From positions 1 to 35,853 of the IMG/VR virus record IMGVR_UViG_3300021368_000900: a stretch of DNA of 35,853 bases; one strand, given 5' to 3'. Positions 15,626 through 31,455 of the stretch are shown here, one piece after another (position 1 is the stretch's first letter; each line of letters opens with the position of its first letter). Both the position numbers and the translations under genes were made by a program. The notes below the pieces were generated by a model. It was not told the origin of the DNA, did not search any database, and saw only the letters and a program-made list of their open reading frames with translations. The stretch is from a virus.

Positions 15626-16147
15626 ATGCTAATGAAAACAGATGATTTAGGTTTACCCAGATTCTCTAACCGTGATTTAATCGATATGATCTATAGTGGT
15701 CATGCGGATAAAGTTCATGTGGTACTATGTGATCCTAGTGATGATGTAGATAAATTTAACAATGCAATGGAAGAACAAGGTATGAGTCCATTGCAAAAGT
15801 ATATCCCATTAGATGTAGATCAAAAGACTTTTGACGGTGTATGTCAAAGTGAATGGTTTATGCCTGATGAATATAAAGCCATTGATGTACAAAGTTGGGT
15901 TCTTAATAAATGCAAAACTGATAAAGAAATAGCAAGAGTAAGCAATGAACTTGTAGAGTTTAAAAAACGTGACATGAACAACTTGCTACGCTATATGATA
16001 TATCTTGTAGACTTTATGCGTGAGAACAACATTGTATGGGGTGTAGGACGTGGATCAAGTGTAGCAAGCTATGTGCTGTATTTGATTGGTGTACATAGAA
16101 TAAACTCAATCCAGTTTGACCTGGATTGGCGTGAGTTCTTAAGATAA
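15626..16147 (+). CDS. Orphan DnaE (DNA polymerase III alpha)-like fragment, 173 residues
   Basis: Residues 100-173 follow the C-family polymerase pattern in order: EIARVSNELVEF (cf. ERV-EL), a helix LLRYMIYLVDFMRENNI (cf. YFLIVxDFI-AK-GI), VGRGSSVASYVLYLIGVHRI (cf. GRGSGAGSLVAYALGIT-ID) and FDLDWREFLR (cf. FDLLFERFLN). In full polymerases this is followed by a PDxDxD catalytic motif and the rest of the enzyme; here the frame stops exactly before it. Residues 1-99 do not look like a PHP domain. It therefore cannot polymerise DNA alone. It might bind nucleotide or DNA, or compete with host PolIII; both are speculation. There is no ribosome site; a sigma-70 promoter abuts the ATG. Confidence 0.75.
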   Translation: MLMKTDDLGLPRFSNRDLIDMIYSGHADKVHVVLCDPSDDVDKFNNAMEEQGMSPLQKYIPLDVDQKTFDGVCQSEWFMPDEYKAIDVQSWVLNKCKTDKEIARVSNELVEFKKRDMNNLLRYMIYLVDFMRENNIVWGVGRGSSVASYVLYLIGVHRINSIQFDLDWREFLR

Positions 16148-16169: not shown

Positions 16170-16586
16170 ATGGCTATGAAAAACAAACAAGCAGTCCATA
16201 GAACAGCCAAAGGTAAAGTTGTTGATATGGATATGTTGCGTCAACGAAACGAATTAACACCAGCCGTTGGCAATGCAAAAGTAAATGCTCGAGGTGACGA
16301 ACTAGGTCCAGGTGGCAAAATTATTAGAGGTAGAGCAGAAATTATTCGAGACTACTATGAAGATAACCCAGCACCTGTTGCTGACGAAGCTCGTACACCT
16401 TCTAAAGCATCTGCACCTGTAGCAGAAGAAGAAAAGCCTGCTACAAAAACAACTCGTTCAAGTAGAGCACAAAAGAAAGTAGAAGAAACAGAAAATTTAC
16501 CTACTGCTGCTGAATTAGCAGAATTTGATGACGACGAATGGGTAGAAGATGAAAATGGAGACTTTGTAAAAAAAGGTGATGTATGA
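16170..16586 (+). CDS. Conserved hypothetical protein with acidic, Ala/Pro/Lys-rich tail (138 residues)
   Basis: The first 70 residues are ordered and basic (KQAVHRTAKGKVVDMDMLRQ, NELTPAVGNAKVNARGDELG, then PGGKIIRGRAEIIRDYYE). The remainder is low-complexity Ala/Pro/Glu/Lys ending in an acidic DDDEWVEDENGDFVKKGD. From memory the N-terminal motif recurs in marine T4-like phages with no known function. AAGGAG at 16158-16163 sets the start. It overlaps the co-chaperonin gene by ATGA, so the two are expressed together; it may be a partner or substrate of the folding machinery, but nothing in the sequence proves that. Confidence 0.8.
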   Translation: MAMKNKQAVHRTAKGKVVDMDMLRQRNELTPAVGNAKVNARGDELGPGGKIIRGRAEIIRDYYEDNPAPVADEARTPSKASAPVAEEEKPATKTTRSSRAQKKVEETENLPTAAELAEFDDDEWVEDENGDFVKKGDV

Positions 16587-16987
16587 GTATTAACTTAAAC
16601 ACAATAAACAGCGATGTACGTGCTATTGGAAAACGTGTCATTGTTTCTAATATGCACTTTGGTGAACAAAAAACAAAAAGTGGTTTAATTTTAAGAGACG
16701 ATGATGGCACCACAAGGGGTATCTATCCACGCTGGGGTCAAGTTTATGCAAAAGGTCCTGAAAATAAGGATCCGTATGAAGTTGGACACTGGATTTTGAT
16801 CGAACACGGTCGATGGACTCGTGGTGTAAAAATCGAAAACGAAAAAGGCGAATTTGAAATTCGTATGGTTGACCAAGAAAACATCTTAGCATTTAGCGAA
16901 GAAAAACCTGACGAAGTTCAAATTGGAGCTGAATATTCAGACGGTCCAGCAGAAATTAGACCAGAAGCGTTCGGAGCAGGTGCTTAA
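16583..16987 (+). CDS. GroES/gp31-type co-chaperonin
   Basis: The 134-residue protein has a GroES-like order of motifs: VRAIGKRVIVSNMHF (first strand), a mobile-loop position EQKTKSGLILRDDDGTTRG, WGQVYAKGPEN (cf. G-V-AVGPG), and YEVGHWILIEHGRW (cf. VKVGDxVLFxxY). T4 gp31 replaces host GroES as the lid of GroEL and is needed to fold the major capsid protein; this gene probably does the same. It is longer than GroES (about 95), with an acidic C-terminal tail of about 30 residues. The ATG overlaps the upstream stop (ATGA), and the stop TAATG overlaps mazG. The family is clear by pattern; interaction with GroEL is inferred. Confidence 0.85.
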   Translation: MSINLNTINSDVRAIGKRVIVSNMHFGEQKTKSGLILRDDDGTTRGIYPRWGQVYAKGPENKDPYEVGHWILIEHGRWTRGVKIENEKGEFEIRMVDQENILAFSEEKPDEVQIGAEYSDGPAEIRPEAFGAGA

Positions 16988-17347: not shown

Positions 17348-18022
17348 ATGAGTATAGAAGCATTACGACAGCAAAAAGTTTATGACGAAGGATTGCGTAA
17401 CTTTATGCTTAATATGTTTAATCATACTTCAGCAGGACTTGCAGTAAGTGGACTAACAGCATATCTAACTTTTGCTACTGGACTAATCTATGCATTAGGT
17501 CCTGTTATGTGGCTATTTGCATTTGCTCCTTTAGGTATGATTTTATTTTACAGTTTTGCAGGACAAAATTGGAGTGTAGGAACATTAACAAATTTTTACT
17601 ACGCATTTACAGTTGTAATGGGTGTAAGTCTTGCACCTATTTTTGCAGTTTATACTGATGTAAGTATAGCAAAAGTATTTTTCATAACTGCTGCAACTTT
17701 TGCTGGAGCAAGTTTGTATGGCTATACAACTAACAAAGACCTAACAAGTATGGGTACTTTCCTAATGATAGGATTGATTGGTATCATTATTGCAATGGTA
17801 GTTAATTTGTTCCTTGCCAGCAGTGCTGTTGCATTTGCTGTAAGCGTTATCGGTGTGATAATTTTTACAGGATTGACTGCATATGATATTCAAATGGCTA
17901 AACGGATTTATCTTGCCCATGGCAATGACCCACGTTACGGCATCCAATTTGCAATTAGCTTATATCTAAACTTTATTAATCTATTCCAAATGTTATTACA
18001 TTTAATTGGCAATAGAGAATAA
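17348..18022 (+). CDS. Bax inhibitor-1 / YccA-family integral membrane protein
   Basis: The 224-residue protein has about seven hydrophobic segments (about 28-48, 52-70, 78-100, 107-127, 138-158, 160-180 and 198-218). It carries BI-1 family signatures: LYGYTTNKDLTSMGTFLMIG, IIFTGLTAYDIQMAKRIY with the conserved Asp, and SLYLNFINLFQMLLHLIG at the C-terminus. BI-1 proteins act as calcium/proton leak channels in some systems and, in bacteria (YccA), inhibit the membrane protease FtsH. The copy looks full length and close to alphaproteobacterial ones, so it was probably taken from a host. A role in protecting the infected cell membrane or a phage protein from proteolysis is inference. The start is set by TAGGAG eight bases upstream. 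Confidence 0.93.
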   Translation: MSIEALRQQKVYDEGLRNFMLNMFNHTSAGLAVSGLTAYLTFATGLIYALGPVMWLFAFAPLGMILFYSFAGQNWSVGTLTNFYYAFTVVMGVSLAPIFAVYTDVSIAKVFFITAATFAGASLYGYTTNKDLTSMGTFLMIGLIGIIIAMVVNLFLASSAVAFAVSVIGVIIFTGLTAYDIQMAKRIYLAHGNDPRYGIQFAISLYLNFINLFQMLLHLIGNRE

Positions 18023-18243: not shown

Positions 18244-19154
18244 AAGAACTATGGGTAGAGAAGTATCGTCCAAAGACAGTGGACGGCTATGTATTTAGAG
18301 ATGAAGCACAACGTAAGCAAGTACAAACTTGGATAAAAGATAAAACCATTCCGCATTTGCTGTTTAGTGGCAATGCCGGGATTGGTAAAACTACTCTTGC
18401 TAAATTACTTTTTAACGAACTTGATGTAAATGACTTAGACGTACTAGAAATTAACGCATCTCGAACAAACTCAGTAGACGATGTTCGTGATAAAATTGTA
18501 AACTTTGTACAGATGATCCCATTCGGGGACTTTAAGGTTGTATTATTAGATGAAGCTGACTACTTATCTCCAAACGCTCAAGCGGCATTGCGCGGTGTTA
18601 TGGAAGAGTATCATACTACTGCTCGTTTCATTCTTACTTGTAATTATCCAAATCGTATTATACCCGCTTTGCATAGTAGGTGTCAAGGTTTCCACATTGC
18701 TAAAATTGACCAAACTGAATTTACAGCTAGAGTTGCTGAAATCCTTATTACCGAAGGTGTTAATCCAGATTTGGATACGCTCGATACCTATGTAAAAGCA
18801 ACATATCCTGACTTGCGTAAATGTATTAACACTGTACAGATGAACTCAGTTGATGGTGTACTAAACAAACCTAATGAAGGTGATACAGGCGAGAGCGACT
18901 GGAAACTGGATATGGTAGAATTATTTAAAGCCGGTAAAATTGAGCAAGCACGTAAATTGCTTTGTGGCACTATCCGTCCAGAAGAAATGGAAGAAGTATA
19001 TCGCTGGTTGTATGATAATTTAGAATTGTTTGGAGATTCAGAAAAGCAAGATCAAGCAGTTCTAATCATTAAACAAGGGTTAGTGGATCACACCCTAGTA
19101 GTTGATCCTGAAATTAACTTAGCGGCAACGCTAATTAGACTAGCGAGGTTATAG
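18240..19154 (+). CDS. 44: Sliding-clamp loader ATPase subunit gp44
   Basis: This 304-residue AAA+ protein (T4 gp44 is about 319) begins with the RFC-type [15 protein letters not shown] box. It has Walker [10 protein letters not shown] at residues 44-52, Walker [10 protein letters not shown] with D104/E105, sensor 1 LTCNY at about 132-136 and the SRC motif at 146-148, whose Arg acts on the neighbouring subunit's ATP. In T4, gp44 with gp62 loads the gp45 clamp for DNA replication and for late transcription, so it links to the ATAAATA promoters here. The gp62 and gp45 genes are not in the window. It is coupled by ATGA to the small membrane gene, and its TAG overlaps the ferredoxin GTG. Confidence 0.95.
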
Positions 19155-19495
19155 TGACTTATATAGTAAATGATTCGTGTATTAATTGTAAGCATATGGA
19201 CTGTGTAGAGGTTTGCCCTGTAGACTGCTTTTACGAAGGTGAAAATATGCTTGTAATTAATCCTGCAGAATGTATTGACTGTGGTGTATGTGAGCCGGAA
19301 TGTCCTGCAGATGCTATTTTTCCAGACACACACGAAAACGGAAAAGATTGGGTAGAGTTTAATCAAAAGTATTCAGAGCTTTGGCCTGTCATTACAAAAG
19401 TGCGGCATGAGGATGTTCCTAAAGATGCTGTAGAATGGCACGGCGTAGAAGGTAAAATGAAATATTTTTCTGAAGCACCTGGAAAAGGTGACTAA
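19154..19495 (+). CDS. fdxA: 7Fe ferredoxin, FdxA type ([3Fe-4S][4Fe-4S])
   Basis: The 113-residue protein keeps all nine cysteines of Azotobacter FdI-type ferredoxins: C9, C12, C17, C21, C25, C40, C43, C46 and C50. By homology C9, C17 and C50 hold the 3Fe cluster and C21, C40, C43 and C46 the 4Fe cluster. The motif [19 protein letters not shown] is nearly identical to bacterial FdxA, and the C-terminal extension ([13 protein letters not shown]) is present, so it is full length. It should carry low-potential electrons in the cytoplasm. Translation starts at GTG overlapping the gp44 stop, and the stop overlaps the next ATG (TAATG). No dedicated reductase is visible nearby; the electron acceptor is unknown, with the oxygenase next door and host enzymes as candidates. 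Confidence 0.95.
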
Positions 19496-20028
19496 TGGAT
19501 TACAAGTGGTATGATTTTAATGCCTTGATAACACGCAATGAGCGTAATGCAATGGCAGATGATGTCCGTGAACTTATCAAAGCAGGACGCTTCTGGCACA
19601 ATAGCCCAAAGTATCAAACAAATGATCAAATATTTGGGCAGCCAGGGACACATTGGTCAAAATTAAAAATGAGTTTTGTTTGGAGTTGCTTTGCCTTTTT
19701 AGGTAGAGAGGTACAAATTAAAGGTGTACAAAGTTGGAGTTTTATGACTAGCTTAAAATACCCCGAACCACGTGATGCACTTTGGCATCACCATCACCAT
19801 AACAAAGCAGTAGAAAGTTTAAGCGGAGTATACTATGTCAAAGTACCGGTCAATAAAAAAGAGTGCGGTACAGAGTTTGCTCCTAATGGACCCGAAGCAC
19901 CTGAAAGACTCCAATTGCCTCCTAAAGAAGGACAATGGATAATATATAATAGTAAAGAATGGCACCGTCCAGGTGAATTAAAAAGCGACAAGGATAGATT
20001 TATTGTTGCTGCCGACATGATGTATTAG
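19495..20028 (+). CDS. 2OG-Fe(II) oxygenase-like protein (177 residues)
   Basis: The C-terminal half matches a jelly-roll dioxygenase pattern: WHHHHHNKAVESLSGVYYVK (residues 97-116, first metal His in the HHHHH run at 98-102), GTEFAPNG at about 125-132, a LPPKEGQWIIYNSKEWHRPG segment with His157 as distal metal ligand, and DRFIVAADM with Arg168 as the likely 2-oxoglutarate-binding residue. Such phage proteins resemble prolyl-hydroxylase-like 2OG oxygenases, which hydroxylate proteins or nucleic acids. The first 90 residues are unlike the family core. The substrate cannot be read. The gene is coupled to the ferredoxin by TAATG. An alternative is a non-catalytic cupin. The family call rests on motif order, not alignment. 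Confidence 0.65.
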   Translation: MDYKWYDFNALITRNERNAMADDVRELIKAGRFWHNSPKYQTNDQIFGQPGTHWSKLKMSFVWSCFAFLGREVQIKGVQSWSFMTSLKYPEPRDALWHHHHHNKAVESLSGVYYVKVPVNKKECGTEFAPNGPEAPERLQLPPKEGQWIIYNSKEWHRPGELKSDKDRFIVAADMMY

Positions 20029-20037
20029 GAGAAAACA

Positions 20038-20706
20038 TTGAACGTTAGACTTGTAAGTTACACAACACCAACCGAAGAGTTTGTTAAAGAAGGCATGGAA
20101 AACAAAGATTTATTAGATCTTGTTGCGTTTTGTGCTAGAGTATCAAATCCGTCAAATCAAATGAATAGTGAAACAAGTGAGAAACTTGTAAAGTATTTGA
20201 TTAAACACGCACACTGGAGCCCATTAGAAATGGTTAACGTGTGTATGGAAATTGAAACCACACGTGATATTGCACACCAAATTGTGCGTCACCGTTCATT
20301 TGCATTCCAAGAGTTTAGTCAACGTTACGCTAATCCCTCAGAAATGGGAGATATGTTTGTCATTCGTGAAGCAAGACTACAGGATGAAAAGAATAGGCAA
20401 AATTCAATCGAAACTGAAGATACAACTCTACAGGATAGATGGGAAGAGATGCAACAAAATGTTATGTATGCCGCAGGCACAGCATACAAATGGGCTATTG
20501 AAAATGGGATTGCAAAAGAACAAGCAAGGGCTGTTCTACCAGAAGGCTGCACAAAAACAAGACTGTATATGAACGGCACTCTGCGAAGTTGGGTACACTA
20601 TATTGAACTCCGCGGTGCTAATGGTACACAAAAAGAACATATGGAAATTGCGCATAAATGTGCAAAAGTTATTGCTGAAGTGTTTCCGTTGGTGGAAAAA
20701 ATTTGA
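20038..20706 (+). CDS. thyX: Flavin-dependent thymidylate synthase ThyX
   Basis: The 222-residue protein has the ThyX signature RHRSFAFQEFSQRY at residues 84-97, matching RHR-x7-S, with supporting KYLIKHAHWSPLEM (52-65) and the C-terminal ARAVLPEGCTKTRLYMNGTL and LRSWVHYIELR segments. ThyX methylates dUMP to dTMP using methylene-tetrahydrofolate and FAD/NADPH, supplying dTMP for an AT-rich genome. The start is TTG at 20038, set by TTAGGAG at about 20026-20032 and by the N-terminal MNVRLVSYT that fits the family; no nearer ATG is plausible. The stop overlaps the next gene's TTG. Confidence 0.95.
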   Translation: MNVRLVSYTTPTEEFVKEGMENKDLLDLVAFCARVSNPSNQMNSETSEKLVKYLIKHAHWSPLEMVNVCMEIETTRDIAHQIVRHRSFAFQEFSQRYANPSEMGDMFVIREARLQDEKNRQNSIETEDTTLQDRWEEMQQNVMYAAGTAYKWAIENGIAKEQARAVLPEGCTKTRLYMNGTLRSWVHYIELRGANGTQKEHMEIAHKCAKVIAEVFPLVEKI

Positions 20707-20938: not shown

Positions 20939-21655
20939 TTATTCGTCTCCGTAAACTTGGAGGACTTCTTTTACTGCGTCATGTCTTTCTATATCTCCTT
21001 GTCCGAAATGGACTATGTCCAAGTGAGTCGTGCTAGATGTTTCTAATAGTTTTGTAAAGTCTATTAAACCATTATCCTTTAGCCTATCTGCCTGTGCTAA
21101 GTCACCCGTTACTGCCATCATTGATCCCTCGCCAAGTCTGGTCAATAACATTTTCATTTGATTAGGTGTAGCATTCTGCATTTCGTCTGCTAAAATAAAG
21201 CTATGCTTGAATGTACGGCCTCTCATATAAGCAAGAGGAGCAATTTCGATAATGCCCTCTTCTATCATGCCTTCTATTTCTCTAGCGTTAAAATATTCTC
21301 TTAACACATCAAAAATAGGTCTAGTCCATGGTGCCATTTTTTGTTCTAGTGTTCCTGGTAGAAACCCTAGATCTTCATCAACGGACACTGCTGGTCTAGT
21401 GACAATAATCTTATCGATTGTGCCTTGTTTGAAAAGTTTTACAGCTACTTGCACTGCTAACAAAGTTTTACCTGTACCAGCTGGTCCGATTCCAAAGACT
21501 ATATCTTTGTCAGTATCGAGCAGTTTTAGTACATATTGTTCTTGATTTCTGTTACGTGGAAGTATTGTTACGGTTTGTTTTTTTTGGAAAGTGTTAATAT
21601 TGACAACATTGTCATATTTATTGTGCTGCCTTGCGGCCTTTCTTTTAGCTCCCAT
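20939..21655 (-). CDS. phoH: PhoH-like ATPase
   Basis: This 238-residue P-loop protein on the minus strand has Walker A GPAGTGKT at residues 57-64, the PhoH motif VTRPAVSVDEDLGFLPGTLE at about 85-104, Walker B FILADEMQN with D157/E158, and AVTGDLAQAD near 181-190 as sensor region. PhoH-family proteins are nucleotide-binding and are common in marine phages; proposed roles include RNA handling (helicase-like) and phosphate stress, none settled. The ribosome site AAGGAGG lies nine bases before the ATG on the minus strand. It is one of only two genes on this strand, with a shared hairpin downstream and a paired hairpin upstream. Confidence 0.95.
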   Translation of the reverse strand: MGAKRKAARQHNKYDNVVNINTFQKKQTVTILPRNRNQEQYVLKLLDTDKDIVFGIGPAGTGKTLLAVQVAVKLFKQGTIDKIIVTRPAVSVDEDLGFLPGTLEQKMAPWTRPIFDVLREYFNAREIEGMIEEGIIEIAPLAYMRGRTFKHSFILADEMQNATPNQMKMLLTRLGEGSMMAVTGDLAQADRLKDNGLIDFTKLLETSSTTHLDIVHFGQGDIERHDAVKEVLQVYGDE

Positions 21656-21690
21656 TAAGTCCTCCTTATTGGAATAGGAAGTAGAGCTTT

Positions 21691-22990: not shown

Positions 22991-23848
22991 ATGGCAAAAG
23001 AACATTTTAAGTTTGACTTCGAGCCGTGGATGGCAGAGGAGTTAATCCATAGAGATGATTGGGAGGATTGGTATGAAGCAATGTGCGAAATCCTTCCTCT
23101 ATGGGAAGTAGATACAATCGAACGTGTAGCAATGTTTGTTGCACAATGTGGACATGAAAGCGGTGGCTTTAGAGTATTAAGTGAAAACTTAAACTATAGT
23201 GCAAAAGCTCTTAACACTATATTCCCTAAATACTTTAAAAGAGCAGGAAGGGATGCAAATGAGTATCACAGACAGCCTGAAAAAATTGCAAACGTTATTT
23301 ACGCAAATAGAATGGACAACGGTGACACCGATTCCGGTGACGGCTGGATGTTTAGAGGCGGAGGTATTCTTCAGCTTACCGGACGTTACAACTACACAAA
23401 GTTCGGCAAAGAAGTAGATATGTCACCTGAAGAAGCAGTAGACTATGTACGTACCAAAAAAGGTGCGCTCGACTCAGCGTGTTGGTTCTGGGACACAAAT
23501 GGCATTAATAGGTACTGTGATGATATGGATGTTGTAGGTGCAACAAAGCGTATTAACGGTGGCACTATTGGTTTAGACGATCGTAAGAAACACTATCTTC
23601 ATGCAATGGATGTATTAGGCGGCGATTACGAAGAACCTGAAGAGCAAGAACTTAACTTAAATCAAACTATACGTAAAGGCAGCAGAGGGCCATTAGTTGC
23701 AGAGGTACAAGAAAAACTTGATATTTCTCCAGCAGACGGTATCTTTGGTCCAGGCACAGAGCGCATTGTAAAAGAATGGCAAAGTGCAAATGGACTTGTT
23801 GCTGACGGCATAGTAGGACCCAAGACATTGGGAAAATTACTAGGGTAG
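22991..23848 (+). CDS. Endolysin: GH19 lysozyme/chitinase-type domain plus PG-binding domain
   Basis: The 285-residue enzyme has a GH19 catalytic domain (residues about 30-212): AQCGHESGGFRVLSENLNYS with catalytic Glu56 and likely second acid Glu65, FPKYFKRAG, YANRMDNGDTDSGDGWMFRG, GGGILQLTGRYNYTKFG, and INGGTIGLDDR near 188-198. A linker EEPEEQELN leads to a C-terminal peptidoglycan-binding domain of the PGRP/PG_binding_1 type (KGSRGPLVAEVQEKL, DGIFGPGTERIVKEWQ, DGIVGPKT, about 229-285). It should cut the glycan strands of peptidoglycan to lyse the cell. No signal peptide, so it needs a holin. An in-frame start with AAAAGGA upstream is used. Confidence 0.93.
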   Translation: MAKEHFKFDFEPWMAEELIHRDDWEDWYEAMCEILPLWEVDTIERVAMFVAQCGHESGGFRVLSENLNYSAKALNTIFPKYFKRAGRDANEYHRQPEKIANVIYANRMDNGDTDSGDGWMFRGGGILQLTGRYNYTKFGKEVDMSPEEAVDYVRTKKGALDSACWFWDTNGINRYCDDMDVVGATKRINGGTIGLDDRKKHYLHAMDVLGGDYEEPEEQELNLNQTIRKGSRGPLVAEVQEKLDISPADGIFGPGTERIVKEWQSANGLVADGIVGPKTLGKLLG

Positions 23849-23853
23849 GTGGT

Positions 23854-24351
23854 ATGGGTGCCAAATTAGCAATCGTATTTTTCTTTTTAATGGCAGGCAT
23901 GGCAGCTGCTGGTGCGTGGTATTATAATGACACACAAGAGCGTATTGCAATTCTGCAGGAAAATAATGCTAAGTTAGAGACAGCCGTACAAACCAATGAA
24001 CAAGCTCTTGTAGCACAACAGGCTGCATTTCAAAGTATGCAAATAGAAAATGCAAGATTACAAACTGAATGGAAAGCAATAAGTGATCGTAATAGAGCTT
24101 TAGAAGATAGACTGTCGCGACATGATATAGGAGCCGCGGCAGTTGCTAAACCAGGGCTTACTGAAAAAGTATTAAACGGTGCAACTTCAAATGTGCAGCG
24201 TTGTTTAGAAATAATGAGTGGGGCGGAACTGACAGATAAAGAAAAGTCAGCAACAAAGCCAAGTGAAATTAATCCTGAATGTTGGAGAACAGCAAATCCT
24301 AACTTTGATCCTAACATTCAAAGCGATGCTTGGAAAAGGAAGAATTTATGA
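23854..24351 (+). CDS. Inner-membrane spanin-like protein (i-spanin/Rz candidate)
   Basis: The 165-residue protein starts with one hydrophobic segment (about 5-24, AIVFFFLMAGMAAAGAWYY) followed directly by a long coiled coil (about 28-90: ERIAILQENNAKLETAVQTN and onward to RALEDRLSRH). This is the layout of Rz-type i-spanins, which span the periplasm and fuse inner and outer membranes after peptidoglycan loss. The C-terminus is polar with Cys at about 115 and 141. It overlaps the next lipoprotein gene by ATGA, the usual Rz/Rz1 neighbourhood, and follows the endolysin. Spanins are poorly conserved, so the call rests on topology and context. A plain coiled-coil membrane protein cannot be excluded. 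Confidence 0.65.
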   Translation: MGAKLAIVFFFLMAGMAAAGAWYYNDTQERIAILQENNAKLETAVQTNEQALVAQQAAFQSMQIENARLQTEWKAISDRNRALEDRLSRHDIGAAAVAKPGLTEKVLNGATSNVQRCLEIMSGAELTDKEKSATKPSEINPECWRTANPNFDPNIQSDAWKRKNL

Positions 24352-24800
24352 AACTCATAACAATTTTAGTTGCGACACTATTATTAGTAGGATGCACATC
24401 AACTCCGAGACAAATAGAAATAAGTGCCAAGCCAATTGATAAGCCAGCACTAGTTTTACCTCCTGTAGAACAACTACGTCTAAAGGACGTAGAATGGATT
24501 GTAATTAACAAAGAAAATGCTGAAGAAGTTTTTGCCAAATTAATTAAGGACAAAAAAGACCCTGCTTTAATTGCATTGACAGATGACGGTTATGAAAAAC
24601 TATCGTTAAACATGAGTGATATAATGGTGTTATTACAACAGCAAAAAGAAATAATTGCTGCCTATCAAAACTACTACGAACAATCCGAAAAAGCATTAGA
24701 AGATGCCAATCAACAAATTGAAAATGCACAAGTAGAAGTTGAAGCAGAAAATAGCAGACCTGCAGAATCTACATTAGATAAGCTAAACCCATTTAAATAA
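24348..24800 (+). CDS. Lipoprotein, outer-membrane spanin-like (o-spanin candidate)
   Basis: The start is ATG 24348, after AAAGGAAGA, overlapping the i-spanin stop; an upstream in-frame start at 24330 adds six residues and breaks the signal peptide. The product is 150 residues: MKLITILVATLLLVGC shows a basic n-region, hydrophobic core and lipobox LLVG|C16, so it is probably acylated and sorted to the outer membrane. A polar periplasmic part follows, with a coiled coil near 95-140 (LLQQQKEIIAAYQNYYEQSE, ALEDANQQIENAQVEVEAEN). Paired with the i-spanin-like gene it would complete a membrane-fusion complex. It is longer than classic Rz1, which is a caution. Confidence 0.62.
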   Translation: MKLITILVATLLLVGCTSTPRQIEISAKPIDKPALVLPPVEQLRLKDVEWIVINKENAEEVFAKLIKDKKDPALIALTDDGYEKLSLNMSDIMVLLQQQKEIIAAYQNYYEQSEKALEDANQQIENAQVEVEAENSRPAESTLDKLNPFK

Positions 24801-24803
24801 ATA
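24796..24803 (+). promoter_or_regulatory. T4-type late promoter motif AATAAATA, leaderless geometry
   Basis: AATAAATA overlaps the stop codon of the lipoprotein gene and ends only five bases before the ATG at 24809. With the usual six-base offset the transcript would begin at or next to the A of the start codon; no ribosome site is present. Confidence 0.55.
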
Positions 24804-24808
24804 TCTGT

Positions 24809-25285
24809 ATGCTTAGGAAATTTCTTCCGGCCATCCTTGTGGCACTATCTGCTTGTCAGACAATAAATGCCTCGCCTCTTGATAGAGCAAAAGGTTTTAT
24901 AGGATTGACTGAAACAAAAGACAGACAAGAAATAAAACAACTTGTAGGTGTAGATCCAGTGCGTACTGAATGGTGTGCAGCATTTGTTAATGCAATGTTG
25001 AATAATGCAGGAATTCCTGGTAGTGAAAGTGTATCGGAATATCCTTTAATGGCGAGAAGTTTTTTAGATTGGGGCGAAGAAGTACATTATACAAAAATAC
25101 AGTACGGAGACATAGTAGTATTTCCAAGAGGAAATGAAGGATGGAAAGGGCACGTAGGGTTTTATGTAGGCACGTACCCACCTTCGGGCGAATGGATAAT
25201 ACTAGGTGGCAATCAAAATAACCAAGTAAAATACAGTTTATATTATCCCGGTCGTGCGATAAGTATTAGGCGTCATATAGAATAA
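24809..25285 (+). CDS. Exported CHAP/NlpC-like (TIGR02594-type) peptidoglycan peptidase, possibly lipoprotein
   Basis: The 158-residue product has a signal peptide (MLRKFLPAILVALSAC) with a lipobox-like LSA|C16; cleavage after residue 21 by the ordinary peptidase is the alternative. The mature part has a cysteine-peptidase layout: Cys56 in RTEWCAAFVNAML, then YGDIVVFPRG, His115 in GHVGFYVG and Asn135 in LGGNQNNQV. This matches the TIGR02594/CHAP-like group, which cut peptidoglycan stem peptides or amide bonds. Having both this and the GH19 endolysin gives two cleavage specificities, one exported independently of the holin. There is no ribosome site; a late promoter ends five bases before the ATG. 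The substrate is inferred. Confidence 0.82.
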   Translation: MLRKFLPAILVALSACQTINASPLDRAKGFIGLTETKDRQEIKQLVGVDPVRTEWCAAFVNAMLNNAGIPGSESVSEYPLMARSFLDWGEEVHYTKIQYGDIVVFPRGNEGWKGHVGFYVGTYPPSGEWIILGGNQNNQVKYSLYYPGRAISIRRHIE

Positions 25286-25288
25286 ATA
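25281..25288 (+). promoter_or_regulatory. T4-type late promoter motif AATAAATA
   Basis: AATAAATA overlaps the previous stop codon and ends 20 bases before the ATG at 25309; the leader holds TAGGAGGG as a strong ribosome site. Confidence 0.7.
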
Positions 25289-25308
25289 CAACATAGTAGG
25301 AGGGTACT

Positions 25309-25605
25309 ATGTGGGAAATGATTGAACGTATGGCAAGCGATAGACTGTGGATTTACACAGCACTTGCAGGTTCACTGTTTGGTGCGGCATTTTTGTTTTG
25401 GTTTAAAGACACAAGAATGGCAACATGGGCAGTAAGTAAATTTGATGCAACATTAGAATATCTAGCAATACGTTGGGGATGGACCTGGCTACAAAACGAT
25501 CCAAATGCTTGGCGTGTAAAGTATCCTAAAATAACATCAAAAATAGATGAAATAGAAAAACGTTTAGAGAAATTGGAGGGCAAAAATGCCAAGAAGAAAA
25601 CTTGA
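25309..25605 (+). CDS. Single-pass membrane protein with C-terminal helix (98 residues)
   Basis: One transmembrane segment lies at about 13-32 (LWIYTALAGSLFGAAFLFWF); the rest is cytoplasmic or periplasmic, with aromatic-rich YLAIRWGWTWLQNDPNAW and a charged coiled coil at the end (SKIDEIEKRLEKLEGKNAKKK). It is expressed from its own late promoter with GGAGGG, in the lysis cassette and overlapping the holin candidate by 20 bases. It may be a holin partner, an antiholin or a further spanin-like factor; no family signature decides between these. Confidence 0.7.
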   Translation: MWEMIERMASDRLWIYTALAGSLFGAAFLFWFKDTRMATWAVSKFDATLEYLAIRWGWTWLQNDPNAWRVKYPKITSKIDEIEKRLEKLEGKNAKKKT

Positions 25606-25951
25606 AGACTTAGATGTTCCAGCAGAAAAGCATGACGCAGAAGTAGTAGTTCCAGCAAGTTCAGAAGGTGCTACTAAAAAAGTGAAGCTAGATTTAGAAG
25701 TAGATACAAGTGTTAAAGACCTAGGACCTAATCCTTATGCAAAAATAATACATTTAGCTAAAGCAGTAGATGCTTGGAGAATTTTCCCTCGTATTTTTAT
25801 TACTGTTTACATAATATTACTTTACAAATGTGTTATTTGGTATATGGACTTACCAGACCCGACTATGGAGCAATCAGGACTAATAAGTGTAGTAGTCGGT
25901 GCAGGTGCTGCTTGGTTCGGACTATACGCCGGAACTAGCAAGAAAGGCTAA
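25586..25951 (+). CDS. Holin candidate, two-TM protein (121 residues)
   Basis: The N-terminal 55 residues are hydrophilic and charged, followed by two hydrophobic segments at about 68-86 (RIFITVYIILLYKCVIWY) and 97-116 (GLISVVVGAGAAWFGLYAG), separated by an acidic turn (MDLPDPTMEQS), and a basic tail TSKKG. This resembles small phage holins that form lesions in the inner membrane and release the endolysin. Context supports it: GH19 endolysin and spanin-like genes lie just upstream. The start has GGAGG at 25575-25579. Holins have few conserved residues, so this is topology plus context. Confidence 0.6.
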   Translation: MPRRKLEDLDVPAEKHDAEVVVPASSEGATKKVKLDLEVDTSVKDLGPNPYAKIIHLAKAVDAWRIFPRIFITVYIILLYKCVIWYMDLPDPTMEQSGLISVVVGAGAAWFGLYAGTSKKG

Positions 25952-25971: not shown

Positions 25972-26781
25972 ATGGACCATTATAGTGTACTTGGCGTAAA
26001 TAGAACAGCCTCTGACAAAGAAATAAAACAAGCATATAGAAAACTTGCTATGGAGCATCATCCTGATCGTACAGGTGGTGACGATACCAAATTTAAACAA
26101 ATAAACGAAGCATACGATGTTTTAAAAGATCCACAAAAAAAAGCAGCGTATGATAATCCACAAGCACAGTTCAATTCAAATGCCTTTAGTGATAATTTTG
26201 GAAATTTTAATGATATATTTTCCAATATGTTCGGAGGAGGATTTCAACAAAGACACGGACCAAGAAACAAGGATATTTCTATACCAGTAAAACTTAGTCT
26301 AGAAGAAGTATTCAGTGGAAAAAATTTAAGACTAAGATATAAAACAACAAGAGGTATAGAAGAGGCTGAGGTTACTATTCCCCCTTACATCCAAAACGGT
26401 CAAACTGTTCAGTTTAGAGGATTAGGAGATAACGCAGTATCTGATTTTCCTAGAGGCAATTTAAATGTCCTAGTAAATTACATAAGACATCATTATTGGA
26501 ACATTGATGGTCCCCATTTAAAAGCTAAAGAAACAATTCCATTAATTAGTTTATTAAAAGGCACACACATATTTGTAAAATCGTTAGAAGGCAGTGATAT
26601 AAAAGTTAATATTCCAAGAGGCACAAAACCTGGAACCACATTAAGTATAACAGGACACGGGTTACCACTTAACAATAGACAACGTGGAAATGCGTATATT
26701 AAAATAGACACTGTGATGCCAAAGTTAACCGAAATGCAATTACTACAATTAGAAAACATTTTTGGTTACCAGTCCAATTGA
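25972..26781 (+). CDS. DnaJ-family co-chaperone (Hsp40, zinc-finger-less CbpA type)
   Basis: The 269-residue protein starts with a J-domain (1-62: YSVLGVNRTASDKEIKQAYR, HPD at 30-32, INEAYDVLKDPQKKAAYD) that would stimulate DnaK ATPase. A Gly/Phe/Asn linker (about 63-95, ending MFGGGFQQ) and a two-part C-terminal substrate-binding domain follow (DISIPVKLSLEEVFSGKNLR, TIPPYIQNGQTVQFRGLGDN, then VNIPRGTKPGTTLSITGHGL). It lacks the four CxxCxGxG zinc repeats, so it is class II, like CbpA, and lacks the final dimerisation end of full DnaJ. It shares its neighbourhood with clpA and probably recruits host DnaK to phage proteins. No clear ribosome site precedes the ATG. Confidence 0.93.
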   Translation: MDHYSVLGVNRTASDKEIKQAYRKLAMEHHPDRTGGDDTKFKQINEAYDVLKDPQKKAAYDNPQAQFNSNAFSDNFGNFNDIFSNMFGGGFQQRHGPRNKDISIPVKLSLEEVFSGKNLRLRYKTTRGIEEAEVTIPPYIQNGQTVQFRGLGDNAVSDFPRGNLNVLVNYIRHHYWNIDGPHLKAKETIPLISLLKGTHIFVKSLEGSDIKVNIPRGTKPGTTLSITGHGLPLNNRQRGNAYIKIDTVMPKLTEMQLLQLENIFGYQSN

Positions 26782-26806
26782 CATTACAACAATTTTATGT
26801 TAAAGT
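26778..26806 (+). promoter_or_regulatory. Sigma-70-type promoter TTGACA-17-TAAAGT
   Basis: A perfect -35 TTGACA (overlapping the dnaJ stop codon) and exactly 17 bases lead to TAAAGT (4 of 6 matches). It precedes the clpA TTG start at 26837 by 30 bases with CAGGAGC as ribosome site. Confidence 0.65.
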
Positions 26807-26836
26807 AAATACAATAATAAAACAGGAGCATTTATT

Positions 26837-29089
26837 TTGGTAGAGCCAAGTAACGAACTACAAGCAGTATTTGATAAAGCAATTAAAGACGCACAAAAAT
26901 TGAGACACGAATATGTAACAGTAGAACATCTATTGTTCAGTATGCTTTGCGAAAAGAATTTTGCACAACTTTTAATAGGGTTCGGTGCAGAAGTAGATTT
27001 TATCAAATCTAGTTTAGAACATCATCTTAAGAATGCAGAAGAAATTAAAATTATCGAAGATGGTGAGCCAAAGAAATTCAAACCTAAAAAAACACAAACT
27101 GTAGAACGTATCTTAAATCGTGCGTTTACACAAGTTTTATTCAACGGTCGTAATACTATTCAGCTTCAGGATGTTATGAGTAGTATACTTGCAGAAAAGA
27201 AAACACCTGCTTGCTACTACTTAAATAAAGGCGGAGTTGATAAAGAAGCATTTAACGAATATGTAAGTAATGAAGTTGCAGAAGAAGCAGAAGATTCAGA
27301 AACTAATAGCCAAGCACAAAAGGCTCTACGTGCATTTACTACTGATCTAAATGCTCAAGTTAAAAAAGGAAAAATTGATCCAGTAATCGGACGTTCTGAA
27401 GAACTAGACAGTATTGCACTTGCTCTAGGACGCAGAAATAAGAATAACGTCTTACTTGTAGGTGACCCTGGAGTTGGTAAAACTGCTATTGCAGAAGGCT
27501 TATCATGGAATATTGTAAATGGCAATGTTCCGCCTTTCTTAGCAGAATATGAAGTATATAATTTAGACATCGGCGCAATGCTTGCAGGCTCCAAGTACCG
27601 AGGTGATTTTGAGGAGCGGTTTAAATTAGTGCTTCATGCACTTACAAAGAAAGACAAAGCCATCATGTTTGTAGATGAAGCTCACATGATGAACGGTGCA
27701 GGTGCTGGCGGAGGTAATAGCTCAAACGATTTAGCAAATATGCTGAAGCCAGCTCTCACTAAAGGCAATCTTAAAGTTGTTGCATCAACAACTTGGGAAG
27801 AATACAGAAAATACTTTGAATCAGATAGAGCATTAATGCGTAGATTCCAAAGAGTTACAGTTGAAGAGCCTAGTGAATCCGTAACTAAAGATATTCTAAA
27901 CGGCATCAAACAATACTACGAAGAATATCATAATGCAACAATTACCGAAGAAGCTATTGATGCTAGTATTAAACTTAGTGTAAAATATCAGCCAGACAAA
28001 AAACTTCCTGACAAAGCAATTGATCTAATTGATGCTGCTTGTTCTAGATTTAATTTGATCGAGTTTGAAGGTGACAAAATTGTAAGCGAAAAGAACATTC
28101 AATTTGAGCTTGCAAAGTATGTTAAATTGCCACCTGAACAGGTTGCTGAAAAAGAAACAGAAAATCTTGCTAATTTAGAAAAGAATATGAAGTCTGTTGT
28201 TTATGGACAAGATGAAGCTATCGAAAATATTGTTGACAAAATCCTTGTTGCCCAAGCAGGGCTAAAAGCACCAACAAGCCCGATTGGTTCATTTGTGTTT
28301 ATGGGGCCAACAGGTACTGGTAAAACAGAAACTGCAAAACAACTTGCTTCACATTTAGGAGTAGAGCTTGTAAGATTTGATATGAGTGAATATCAAGAAA
28401 AACACTCTGTCGCAAAACTTATTGGTTCGCCTCCAGGCTATGTTGGGCATGAAGAAACTAGTGGATTATTAATTGAAAAACTACAAGAAAATCCTAACTG
28501 TGTGTTATTGCTAGACGAAATTGAAAAAGCTCACCCAGACGTGTCTCAGATCCTTTTGCAGATTATGGACAACGGAAAAGTAACAAGCTCAAATGGCAAG
28601 GAAGCAGATGCTAGAAATAGTGTTCTTATATTAACAACTAATTTAGGTGCTAAGGAAGCTGAAAAGAATACTATCGGGTTTGGCAATGATAATGATAACG
28701 AGTATGATGATAAAGAACTTAAGAACTTTTTTGCTCCTGAGTTCCGTAACAGATTAGATGCTACAATTACATTTGCAAAACTTGGTAAAGAAACAATGAT
28801 GAAAATTGTTGGCAAGTTCTTGTTAGAATTAAAAACAATGGTCAAAGATAAAAATGTTAAAATTACCATTTCCGATGATGCATTAGACTACCTTGTAGAA
28901 AAAGGCTTTGATCCTAAAATGGGAGCAAGACCTTTACAACGTGTTATTGACAAGGAAATTAAACGTCCTCTATCAAGAGAATTACTTTTTGGAAATCTTA
29001 AAGATGGGGGTGTAGTAGAAATTGTGCATGATGCAGATGAAAATACTATATCTTTAAGAACCGGAGAGATTTTAGTTGAAGAAGTTTAA
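26837..29089 (+). CDS. clpA: ClpA-type AAA+ unfoldase with IGF loop
   Basis: This 750-residue Hsp100 protein has an N-domain (about 1-145), first AAA module with Walker A GDPGVGKT (209-216) and Walker B D280/E281 in MFVDEAH, and second module with Walker A GPTGTGKT (490-497) and Walker B D560/E561 in LLLDEIEKAH. Pore loops GSKYRGDFEERF and GSPPGYVGHEE are present. There is no long coiled-coil middle domain, so it is ClpA-like, not ClpB-like. IGF at 613-615 (KNTIGFGNDND) is at the ClpP-docking loop position. It could therefore couple to host ClpP and degrade chosen proteins; the phage shows no clpP. The start is TTG (CAGGAGC upstream), under a sigma-70-like promoter. Confidence 0.95.
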   Translation: MVEPSNELQAVFDKAIKDAQKLRHEYVTVEHLLFSMLCEKNFAQLLIGFGAEVDFIKSSLEHHLKNAEEIKIIEDGEPKKFKPKKTQTVERILNRAFTQVLFNGRNTIQLQDVMSSILAEKKTPACYYLNKGGVDKEAFNEYVSNEVAEEAEDSETNSQAQKALRAFTTDLNAQVKKGKIDPVIGRSEELDSIALALGRRNKNNVLLVGDPGVGKTAIAEGLSWNIVNGNVPPFLAEYEVYNLDIGAMLAGSKYRGDFEERFKLVLHALTKKDKAIMFVDEAHMMNGAGAGGGNSSNDLANMLKPALTKGNLKVVASTTWEEYRKYFESDRALMRRFQRVTVEEPSESVTKDILNGIKQYYEEYHNATITEEAIDASIKLSVKYQPDKKLPDKAIDLIDAACSRFNLIEFEGDKIVSEKNIQFELAKYVKLPPEQVAEKETENLANLEKNMKSVVYGQDEAIENIVDKILVAQAGLKAPTSPIGSFVFMGPTGTGKTETAKQLASHLGVELVRFDMSEYQEKHSVAKLIGSPPGYVGHEETSGLLIEKLQENPNCVLLLDEIEKAHPDVSQILLQIMDNGKVTSSNGKEADARNSVLILTTNLGAKEAEKNTIGFGNDNDNEYDDKELKNFFAPEFRNRLDATITFAKLGKETMMKIVGKFLLELKTMVKDKNVKITISDDALDYLVEKGFDPKMGARPLQRVIDKEIKRPLSRELLFGNLKDGGVVEIVHDADENTISLRTGEILVEEV

Positions 29090-29747
29090 TTCACCTAAAA
29101 AATATTATGAGAAATATTGGTATAAACTAGAATTTTTTAATAGCATAGCGCATATTTTTAGAGATAAAAATTTTGCCTATGCTAGATCTATGCTAGAAAG
29201 TATTCAACACGAATATGATAAGGGAACTGAACTTATACTGCGAAAAGCATATATAGAAATTCCAGTAAGTATGGAAGACTTTTTGGATGCAAAATACCTT
29301 TTACAAAAACTAAGCCAAACTAAAACAGATTACATGATTAGAATAGAAATGGGATCTATTAGTTTATATGCCAATAGTCCTAAGTTTTTATTTGGCATAT
29401 CTGACAAACTTTATAAAGAATGCAAATACTACAGCCCAAGTGATAATTTAAAAGACCTAATAAACGAAATCCCAAGAGTAGCTATATTAAAAAGACCTAC
29501 TGATTTTAAGTATAGAGTTACTTTAAAAAACAGAGTAAGTACAGATTTTGCAGCATGGATTGATGCAAATAGGGATAAAATTAAAATAGGTACTCGTGCA
29601 TATGAATATATTAAAACATCAGGGTTTTGTCATGGTTACTATTTTTATGTAAAAAGTCCAAAAGTACTATCTTTATTAAATATTTTCATAGGTAACAATA
29701 TCCGTAAAATTGAAGAAGTAGTTGTTGACCCTACTATTGATAAATAG
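29076..29747 (+). CDS. Hypothetical basic protein (223 residues), TTG start
   Basis: Not recognised. It overlaps the end of clpA by 14 bases in another frame, starting at TTG (MKKFNSPKKYYEKYWYKLEF) with GGAGAG upstream at about 29062-29067. It is rich in Lys, Tyr and Phe, with aromatic helices in the N-terminal half, RVAILKRPTDFKYRVTLKNR in the middle, and a C-terminal YIKTSGFCHGYYFYVKSPKV. It may bind nucleic acid, given its high positive charge. The coupling to clpA suggests possible co-function as an adaptor, but this is only from position. A late promoter lies in its last bases. Confidence 0.72.
   Translation: MKKFNSPKKYYEKYWYKLEFFNSIAHIFRDKNFAYARSMLESIQHEYDKGTELILRKAYIEIPVSMEDFLDAKYLLQKLSQTKTDYMIRIEMGSISLYANSPKFLFGISDKLYKECKYYSPSDNLKDLINEIPRVAILKRPTDFKYRVTLKNRVSTDFAAWIDANRDKIKIGTRAYEYIKTSGFCHGYYFYVKSPKVLSLLNIFIGNNIRKIEEVVVDPTIDK
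29739..29746 (+). promoter_or_regulatory. T4-type late promoter motif GATAAATA, leaderless geometry
   Basis: GATAAATA ends five bases before the ATG at 29752, the same spacing as at 24796-24803. No ribosome site lies between them, so the transcript would be leaderless. Confidence 0.6.
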
Positions 29748-29751
29748 TAGT

Positions 29752-30159
29752 ATGCCGAGTAATAGTATAGATATTTTAACACAGAACACACATCCAGATG
29801 ATAGCACTGTTACGACAGTAACTGGTGACCAATATCGCGGGGATGGGTATTACGGCCGCTCAGACGGTCTACACACCATGCAAGCAAATCTTAACGGATT
29901 TGTAGGCAAGATTGAGATTCAAGCAACACTAGCTGTTAACCCTACAGCAGATGACTGGTTTACTGTAGAGCTAGGTACTGGTGGATTATCTGTAGATACC
30001 ACAGGACTTATTTCAGAAGAAAACATAACTTTTATAGAATACACTGATGCAACTACAAATACTAAAACATACAACTTTACCGGCAATTATGTATGGATTA
30101 GAGCTTATGTATCTAATTGGACTACAGGTACAGTAAATTATATCAAGTTAAATCATTAA
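29752..30159 (+). CDS. Virion structural protein candidate (135 residues)
   Basis: The start at 29752 (MPSNSIDILTQNTHPDD) is set by the late promoter just upstream; a frame start at 29722 would precede the transcript. It is beta-rich and acidic, with GDGYYGRSDGLHTMQANLNG, FVGKIEIQATLAVNPTADDW and NYVWIRAYVSNW. I recall proteins of this pattern (GxYG-DG-HT, GFVGxIxIxxTLA-P-DW) in marine T4-like phages among structural genes. It opens the second adhesion block and is followed within ten bases by a fibre gene. Its exact place in the virion is not known. Confidence 0.75.
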   Translation: MPSNSIDILTQNTHPDDSTVTTVTGDQYRGDGYYGRSDGLHTMQANLNGFVGKIEIQATLAVNPTADDWFTVELGTGGLSVDTTGLISEENITFIEYTDATTNTKTYNFTGNYVWIRAYVSNWTTGTVNYIKLNH

Positions 30160-30168
30160 GGTGGGCAA

Positions 30169-31455
30169 ATGGCAAAGCAAACAATTAACATTGGATCAGC
30201 AGAACTAGCAGGGGACGGTGAAAGCCTTCGTTCAGCGTTTGACAAAATCAATGACAACTTTGATGAATTGTATATATCAAGCGGCGGCGGTATTGCACTT
30301 ACAGATCTAAGTATATCTACAAATCCTGCAGGCACAGCAGCTCTTTCGTACAATAACACTACAGGTGTATTTACATATACTCCGCCCGATTTAAGTTCAT
30401 TTAGTACATTTGACGGAGACTATGATAGTTTAACAAACAAGCCAACAATACCAGCAGCAGGCATTGCCTTAGGTGATTTAAGTGTAGGTGCTGAAGATCC
30501 TGCTTCAGGCGATGGCGGTATTTCTTATGATAATACAACTGGAGTTTTTACTTATGCTCCCCCAGATCTATCACAATATCAGCCAGTAGGCAACTTGAAT
30601 GCAGACATTGATGCTCATTTAAACACAAGCACTGCAACTAGTAACGAAGTATTAAGTTGGGACGGCTCAGATTATGCATGGGTTGCACAATCATCAGGTT
30701 CAAGTTTAAATAATATTCAAGACGAAACTTATGGTGTAAGTGTAACTGGCAAAATAGCTGTAACCACTATAGATATTGGTACAGGAGGCATAAATGCTCA
30801 ACCTGGCGGAACATATGATTTACAAGGTACAACAATTCATTTTGGTAGTGCAACTATCGCTGGCGGAAGTGCATTTAATCCTGTAATTAATAATCATCTA
30901 TGGTCAGGTAGCACAGCACCAACAGACGGATATGTTCTAAGTTGGGACGCTAGTGCTCTTTCAGGTAATGGAGATTATTCCTGGGTAGCACAATCTGCTG
31001 ACACTTTACAAGATGTAACAACTAGGGGTGCAACCACTACAGACCTTATTGATTTCCAAGCTGGTATGACTGTTGGAGGCGCAGACTTACATATACTTAA
31101 TCACGGCATATTAGAACAATTAGTACAGGTTAACAATCCGACAGGTGTTGTAACATATGACTGTAATGCAACAAATGTTTGGTGGAACATTCAACCAGCA
31201 GCAGATTGGACAGCAAACTTTATTAATATAAATGTACCACTAGATAGTGCAAGAAACGTAACACTAGCAATCATACAAGAGTCACAGCCTTTTATTCCTT
31301 CAGCAGTACAAATCATGGGAGCCCCACAGACTATAAGATGGCAAGGCGGAACTCCGCCAACAGGTACAGCAAATGGTGTTGACGTTGTAAGTTTTAGTAT
31401 TATCGTAATTGGTGCAACTTATCATATACTCGGACAACTAGTGGACTTTTCATAA
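30169..31455 (+). CDS. Tail-fibre-like protein with NIG-type N-terminal module (428 residues)
   Basis: The N-terminus (residues 6-34: INIGSAELAGDGESLRSAFD, then K-N-DNFDEL) is the third copy of the docking-like module. Two 38-40-residue repeats lie at 41-78 and 98-137 (GIAL-DLS...GVFTY-PPDLS). VLSW-x-YAWVAQS recurs as VLSW-x-YSWVAQS, and TLQDVTTRGATTTD is a typical fibre collar motif. The C-terminal 100 residues are a globular beta domain (NVWWNIQPAADWTANFININ, VDVVSFSIIVIGATYHILGQ). It uses GTGGG as ribosome site and its stop overlaps the next ATG (TAATG). It is probably a second, shorter fibre with different binding from the giant one. Confidence 0.82.
   Translation: MAKQTINIGSAELAGDGESLRSAFDKINDNFDELYISSGGGIALTDLSISTNPAGTAALSYNNTTGVFTYTPPDLSSFSTFDGDYDSLTNKPTIPAAGIALGDLSVGAEDPASGDGGISYDNTTGVFTYAPPDLSQYQPVGNLNADIDAHLNTSTATSNEVLSWDGSDYAWVAQSSGSSLNNIQDETYGVSVTGKIAVTTIDIGTGGINAQPGGTYDLQGTTIHFGSATIAGGSAFNPVINNHLWSGSTAPTDGYVLSWDASALSGNGDYSWVAQSADTLQDVTTRGATTTDLIDFQAGMTVGGADLHILNHGILEQLVQVNNPTGVVTYDCNATNVWWNIQPAADWTANFININVPLDSARNVTLAIIQESQPFIPSAVQIMGAPQTIRWQGGTPPTGTANGVDVVSFSIIVIGATYHILGQLVDFS
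30289..30402 (+). repeat. Fibre repeat unit A, copy 1
   Basis: Encodes residues 41-78 of the fibre (GIALTDLSISTNPAG ... YNNTTGVFTYTPPDLSSF). Partner at 30460-30579. Confidence 0.85.
30460..30579 (+). repeat. Fibre repeat unit A, copy 2
   Basis: Encodes residues 98-137 (GIALGDLSVGAEDP ... YDNTTGVFTYAPPDLSQY), with a two-residue insertion relative to copy 1. Confidence 0.85.

Follow-up and report, generated by a model that had tools for sequence, protein, structure and literature searches.

Closest described systems

Clp-type genes have been recorded in large phages before. The Atu_ph07 paper already listed ClpA (gp292), DnaJ (gp293), a Clp proteolytic subunit (gp676) and ClpS (gp708) (PMC6102473), and ClpP, ClpS, ClpA and DnaJ were noted in jumbo-phage groups by Iyer et al., with ClpP or ClpS present in some (PMC7824862). 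ClpA is a core gene of the moraphages, for which DnaJ and DnaK have also been discussed (PMC12619734). DnaJ is common among the phages of these two papers. A literature search for the term "phage-encoded ClpP" returned no match.

The DNA analyzed here (the window) is a 35.9-kb piece of the genome of a large, marine-type bacterial virus, and the best explanation of its gene content is a phage related to the large phages PA5oct and Atu_ph07. In Atu_ph07, as in the window, dnaJ immediately precedes clpA in the same orientation; ClpP and ClpS are encoded elsewhere in the 490-kb genome of this phage. Identity to the window proteins is about 41% for ClpA and 37% for DnaJ, and Atu_ph07 also has ClpX, which was not found in most of the aquatic relatives. 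The Pseudomonas phage PA5oct (Wroclawvirus, MK797984) shares the window's order of DNA polymerase III fragment, GroES-like gene, clamp loader and PhoH (minus strand), continuing with two virion-type genes, DnaJ, ClpA and a virion gene. Its ClpA is 41% identical to the window's and likewise keeps the IGF tripeptide, while its ClpP, encoded 12.6 kb upstream of clpA, is of a type with an insertion in the handle region. Unlike in the window, PhoH and dnaJ of PA5oct are not separated by lysis genes, and its DnaJ is shorter and divergent. In the Sinorhizobium phage Phosso, which encodes ClpP and ClpS as well, the order is dnaJ, peptide deformylase, clpA, whereas a gap of just 55 nt separates dnaJ from clpA in the window. 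Thus, all three cultured phages carry the dnaJ-clpA pair together with ClpP. To these records our analysis adds that dnaJ and clpA are tightly linked in about 85 records, where clpP lies in relatives with respect to the window, and that the phage ClpPs appear to share an origin.

The dnaJ-clpA pair

The features of the locus and its surroundings are as follows.

16583..16987, plus strand: candidate GroES/gp31-like co-chaperonin gene, in the same relative place in PA5oct
20939..21655, minus strand: PhoH, a conserved opposite-strand landmark upstream of the block, also present in PA5oct
22991..25951, plus strand: lysis-type cassette, directly upstream of dnaJ
from 22991, plus strand: endolysin, member of the cassette
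from 24330, plus strand: Rz-like spanin, member of the cassette
from 24809, plus strand: CHAP protein, member of the cassette
from 25309 and from 25586, plus strand: small membrane-type proteins, the one at 25586 holin-like by eye
25972..26781, plus strand: dnaJ, class II (type B) J-domain co-chaperone, 269 aa
26778..26806, plus strand: weak promoter-like TTGACA-17-TAAAGT between dnaJ and clpA
26837..29089, plus strand: clpA, HSP100 unfoldase, 750 aa, TTG start
27461..27484, plus strand: D1 Walker A of ClpA, GDPGVGKT, residues 209-216
28304..28327, plus strand: D2 Walker A of ClpA, GPTGTGKT, residues 490-497
28673..28681, plus strand: IGF tripeptide of the ClpP-docking loop of ClpA, residues 613-615
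29076..29747, plus strand: fast-evolving gene overlapping the end of clpA
29722-30159, plus strand: virion-type protein, downstream of clpA
30169-31455, plus strand: tail-fibre/baseplate-type protein, downstream of clpA

The window DnaJ matched the DnaJ domain families PF00226 (E=8e-25) and PF01556 (E=3e-26), and its layout comprises a J domain spanning residues 2-61 (HPD at 30-32), a G/F-rich stretch and a C-terminal substrate-binding domain (103-250). Since HPD and the C-terminal domain are present and the CxxCxGxG zinc motif was not found in the protein, it is a class II (type B) DnaJ. Of 74 aligned homologues, 71 have an intact HPD, the remaining three being gapped at the site. Some moraphages encode DnaK (PMC12619734), whereas no DnaK was detected in the 43 related records tested here; therefore, this DnaJ, if Hsp70-dependent, would be limited to the DnaK of the host.

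The ClpA of the window has an N domain, D1, D2 and D2-small, without the middle domain of ClpB, and Walker B motifs at 276 and 556. It resembles E. coli ClpA in domain layout, in its Walker motifs and in the docking tripeptide, and chains of the E. coli protein were among the top matches of a structural search. The gene has a TTG start, and M1, E3 and P4 are invariant in homologues. The protein matched PHROG phrog_4871 with 831 bits across residues 5-740, and Pfam, PHROGs and PDB alignments over these residues identify it as a ClpA-type unfoldase of the phage branch. Since its best NCBIfam match, TIGR02639 (ClpA), scored 862.7 bits, below the 993-bit equivalog cutoff, we filed it as a phage ClpA-like protein and not as the housekeeping equivalog. 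The original prediction of a class II DnaJ beside a full ClpA-type unfoldase was thus borne out, with both ORFs in place and their domains intact.

The IGF tripeptide had also been proposed to occupy the ClpP-docking position, and this was confirmed by its alignment with IGL of E. coli ClpA. Among the 82 ClpA homologues that reach the site, 79 have IGF and three VGF, and the flanking loop is variable; a motif kept in 82/82 while its flanks vary is not there by chance. In an AlphaFold model of ClpA, the tripeptide fell within an unstructured, low-confidence loop (pLDDT about 50) between two helices, as would be expected of a flexible docking loop. Since confidence in the model as a whole is middling (pLDDT 75.6, pTM 0.43), it lends weak support to the predicted exposure of this loop.

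To assess linkage, we compared 82 loci (80 related IMG/VR loci, Atu_ph07 and Phosso). Results showed that dnaJ lies upstream of clpA in 73 of them and that the other nine hold at most 432 bp before clpA. In an independent, ClpP-seeded search, 11 records had a full-length ClpA and dnaJ preceded clpA in all 11. Hence, the pair is conserved together in every relative in which its order could be seen, and the original prediction withstands its own refuting condition of a pair that does not occur jointly. A peptide deformylase was found in 21 of 43 records; it is encoded between dnaJ and clpA in Phosso and, by position, in the other records compared (e.g., G001, G003, G007 and G012).

The fast-evolving gene that overlaps the end of clpA follows clpA in 74 of the 82 loci. 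No family match was obtained for its window protein, which resembles uncharacterized phage proteins, including one from Atu_ph07, and is predicted to adopt an alpha/beta fold with a ferredoxin-like part (model pLDDT 93). We considered an adaptor role for this protein and rejected it, since no solved structure was clearly related (Foldseek E 4e-3 at best; highest Z 5.5, for 70 residues).

Gene setting and expression

From position 21689, the plus strand carries virion-type genes, endolysin, spanin, the CHAP protein, small membrane-type genes, dnaJ and clpA and, after clpA, the fast-evolving gene followed by virion and tail-fibre genes. Since virion, lysis and tail-fibre genes surround the pair, gene order alone suggests that it is expressed late, which counts against an early role in taking over the host; the description of the pair as a "takeover" module was therefore unsupported. 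The T4-type late promoter TATAAATA had no site on either strand of the whole window, where 5.1 ± 2.25 were expected. It had further been proposed that clpA is under its own host-type promoter. A TTGACA-17-TAAAGT element is indeed present, but promoter-like sites in the region were no more frequent than chance (44 observed vs 39.6 ± 6.7 in shuffles), so the element is no evidence of a promoter by itself. Similarly, the gene at 16583, predicted to be GroES-like, received moderate support from phrog_3188 (GroES; E=4e-5) and matched phrog_931 (head morphogenesis) with E=5e-14, but its score against Pfam Cpn10 was 18.4 bits, under the cutoff of 21.1.

The position of the pair among lysis and structural genes would also suit a system devoted to folding, in which ClpA and DnaJ, together with the GroES-like protein, help to fold and remodel proteins for tail-fibre or virion assembly and proteolysis is secondary. 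Translocase or virion-assembly roles have been proposed for phage ClpA (Iyer et al., PMC7824862), and in PA5oct structural proteins marked ESI-MS/MS in the record come after the pair. We regard this explanation as rather unlikely, since retention of the docking motif in every homologue despite variable flanks, together with co-encoded ClpP and ClpS, points to maintained proteolysis. Alternatively, the system might serve counter-defence, by degrading or remodeling host immune proteins or through a DnaJ that blocks chaperone-dependent sensing of the phage. Host DnaJ is reported to mediate phage sensing by bNACHT25 (PMC12169576), and a counter-defence role was proposed for phage heat-shock proteins by the authors of the moraphage paper (PMC12619734). 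However, conservation of the genes across very different hosts and their virion/lysis setting do not suggest a host-specific target, making counter-defence quite unlikely.

ClpP in related phages

The original prediction rested on the observation that no ClpP gene is visible. This is correct for the window itself, a 35.9-kb fragment in which PF00574 had no match. However, a full-length ClpP (PF00574, E 1e-64 to 1e-82) was found in 10 of 20 long relatives with the pair, and its detection followed the amount of sequence held upstream of clpA: all eight relatives with at least 50 kb encode ClpP, as do two of five with 40-50 kb and none of seven with less. Since clpP sits 30.7-57.7 kb upstream of clpA in relatives and the window holds just 26.8 kb there, the absence is with high probability an artefact of the fragment. 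Fragment ends can thus produce false gene absences. Gene order in G007 and G012, the long relatives nearest to the window, is colinear with it. The counterpart of the window's first gene is at G007:36402-36932, with clpP at G007:47589-48134; in G012 the two are at G012:34006-34536 and G012:47538-48083. In G007 and G012, clpP is thus 10.7 and 13.0 kb past the left end of the window, respectively. We infer that the window phage also encodes clpP, about 11-13 kb to the left of the window; this placement is drawn from relatives 75-77% identical in ClpA. In more distant large records (e.g., G056, G062 and G066), clpP has a different location, either downstream or at a long distance. One long record, G002 (175.7 kb), carries the pair and 48 kb upstream of clpA, yet has no ClpP, so loss of ClpP, or a more distant gene, is possible in some members.

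The catalytic triad S97/H122/D171 was intact in 90/90 phage ClpPs, and the unfoldase-docking pocket was conserved at L48, Y62 (Y/F), F82 (F/Y) and L114, positions based on the pocket of E. coli ClpP. In both triad and pockets the ClpPs of the relatives resemble E. coli ClpP, and by sequence they are near-canonical. In a ClpP tree, 68 phage and 39 bacterial rows fell on opposite sides of a single branch (support 100/96), the phage proteins thus forming one clade apart from the sampled bacterial ClpPs. Since the bacterial ClpPs were sampled by similarity to one phage ClpP, the tree shows no recent capture among the sampled genomes; it is consistent with, but no proof of, a single origin of the phage ClpPs. 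The nearest cellular ClpPs found came from mixed phyla, at 59-67% identity, and a SAR11-type host was unsupported.

L086-L090 and PA5oct (L284:3350-4021) carry a second type of ClpP, in which MIHQ is replaced by MIHR. This type has an insertion of about 10 residues in the handle region, behind the catalytic His, and keeps the triad; the insertion may alter assembly of the ClpP ring. The ClpP of G009 (L085) shares a long branch with the Atu_ph07 and Phosso proteins even though the ClpA of this record has 65% identity to that of the window, a hint that ClpP was swapped.

These data bear on the central proposal of the original prediction, namely that a phage without ClpP uses its ClpA, supplied with substrates by DnaJ and host DnaK, to turn host ClpP on host proteins. 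Considering that the pockets of phage and bacterial ClpPs are alike, docking on host ClpP is chemically plausible, and the conserved IGF motif, the missing ClpP of the window and G002 are all compatible with it. However, such redirection supposes a phage lineage that lacks ClpP, and this lineage has a full-length ClpP of its own in every relative with enough upstream sequence, G002 being the one long record without it; moreover, the closest colinear relatives place clpP just beyond the window. Use of host ClpP is accordingly unlikely, and we rejected it as the main reading on the distribution of ClpP among relatives. A phage that hijacks host ClpP is thereby replaced by large phages that are predicted to bring their own ATP-dependent protease, apparently an old and deeply conserved one.

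The phage ClpPs of the relatives might instead be head-maturation proteases unconnected with ClpA. RefSeq labels the ClpPs of Atu_ph07 and PA5oct "head maturation protease", and that of PA5oct is marked as detected by ESI-MS/MS in MK797984. We consider this very improbable. A separate S77-type prohead protease was found in 7 of 22 records, six of which, including Atu_ph07 and Phosso, also have ClpP, which argues against ClpP as the head protease. In addition, Phosso has a second, divergent ClpP-like protein, and the near-canonical phage ClpPs retain their unfoldase-contact positions.

The reading that we prefer, and hold to be probable on sequence evidence, is that the window shows, in this pair, one part of a predicted phage-encoded ClpAP-type system in a large phage related to PA5oct and Atu_ph07, with a DnaJ that uses host DnaK, acting late. 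The phage would supply its own ClpP from the position given above, and its ClpA would dock through IGF mainly onto that ClpP. DnaJ and host DnaK may keep phage or host proteins that tend to aggregate in an unfolded state for ClpA, or may aid folding. Since the genes around the pair are virion and lysis genes, the system is proposed to work late, in quality control or selective protein removal around virion assembly. The best reading of its history is vertical inheritance of a ClpAP(S) system with the phage lineage. As the same genes occur in the cultured phages PA5oct, Atu_ph07 and Phosso, the substrates of phage ClpAP are directly testable.

ClpS and other components

Of 43 records, 7 encode ClpS, and only one record of 126 kb or longer is without it; in the independent ClpP-based set, ClpS was present in 7 of 12. 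No ClpS was found among the window ORFs scanned. ClpX scored above cutoff in just 4 of 22 records (Atu_ph07, Phosso, G066 and G074). Together, peptide deformylase, ClpS, ClpA, ClpP and DnaJ could conceivably form a self-sufficient N-degron-type pathway, independent of host Clp proteins, for selective turnover in late infection, an idea that we put forward as doubtful. Leu/Phe-tRNA-protein transferase (Aat), sought as support for such a pathway, was not detected in 22 records, so the Aat step would have to be supplied by the host.

Other genes of the window

A membrane protein of the Bax inhibitor-1/YccA family is encoded at 17348-18022 on the plus strand (PF01027, E=8e-52). It matched NCBIfam YccA (FtsH modulator) with E=5e-15, had no PHROG match and occurs in just six records of the phage collection, with 68-70% identity in G007 and G012; it is possibly a candidate phage-encoded regulator of host FtsH. 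At 15626-16147 (plus strand), a stand-alone 173-aa protein matches just part of DNA polymerase III alpha (PF07733) and is 77-79% identical in close relatives and 48% in PA5oct. The tail-fibre region includes a subtilisin-like peptidase at 8079-9647 (plus strand; PF00082, E=5e-31). Accessory metabolic-type genes encode an Fe-S biosynthesis protein (911-1219), a ferredoxin (19154-19495), a 2OG-Fe(II) oxygenase (19495-20028) and ThyX (20038-20706).
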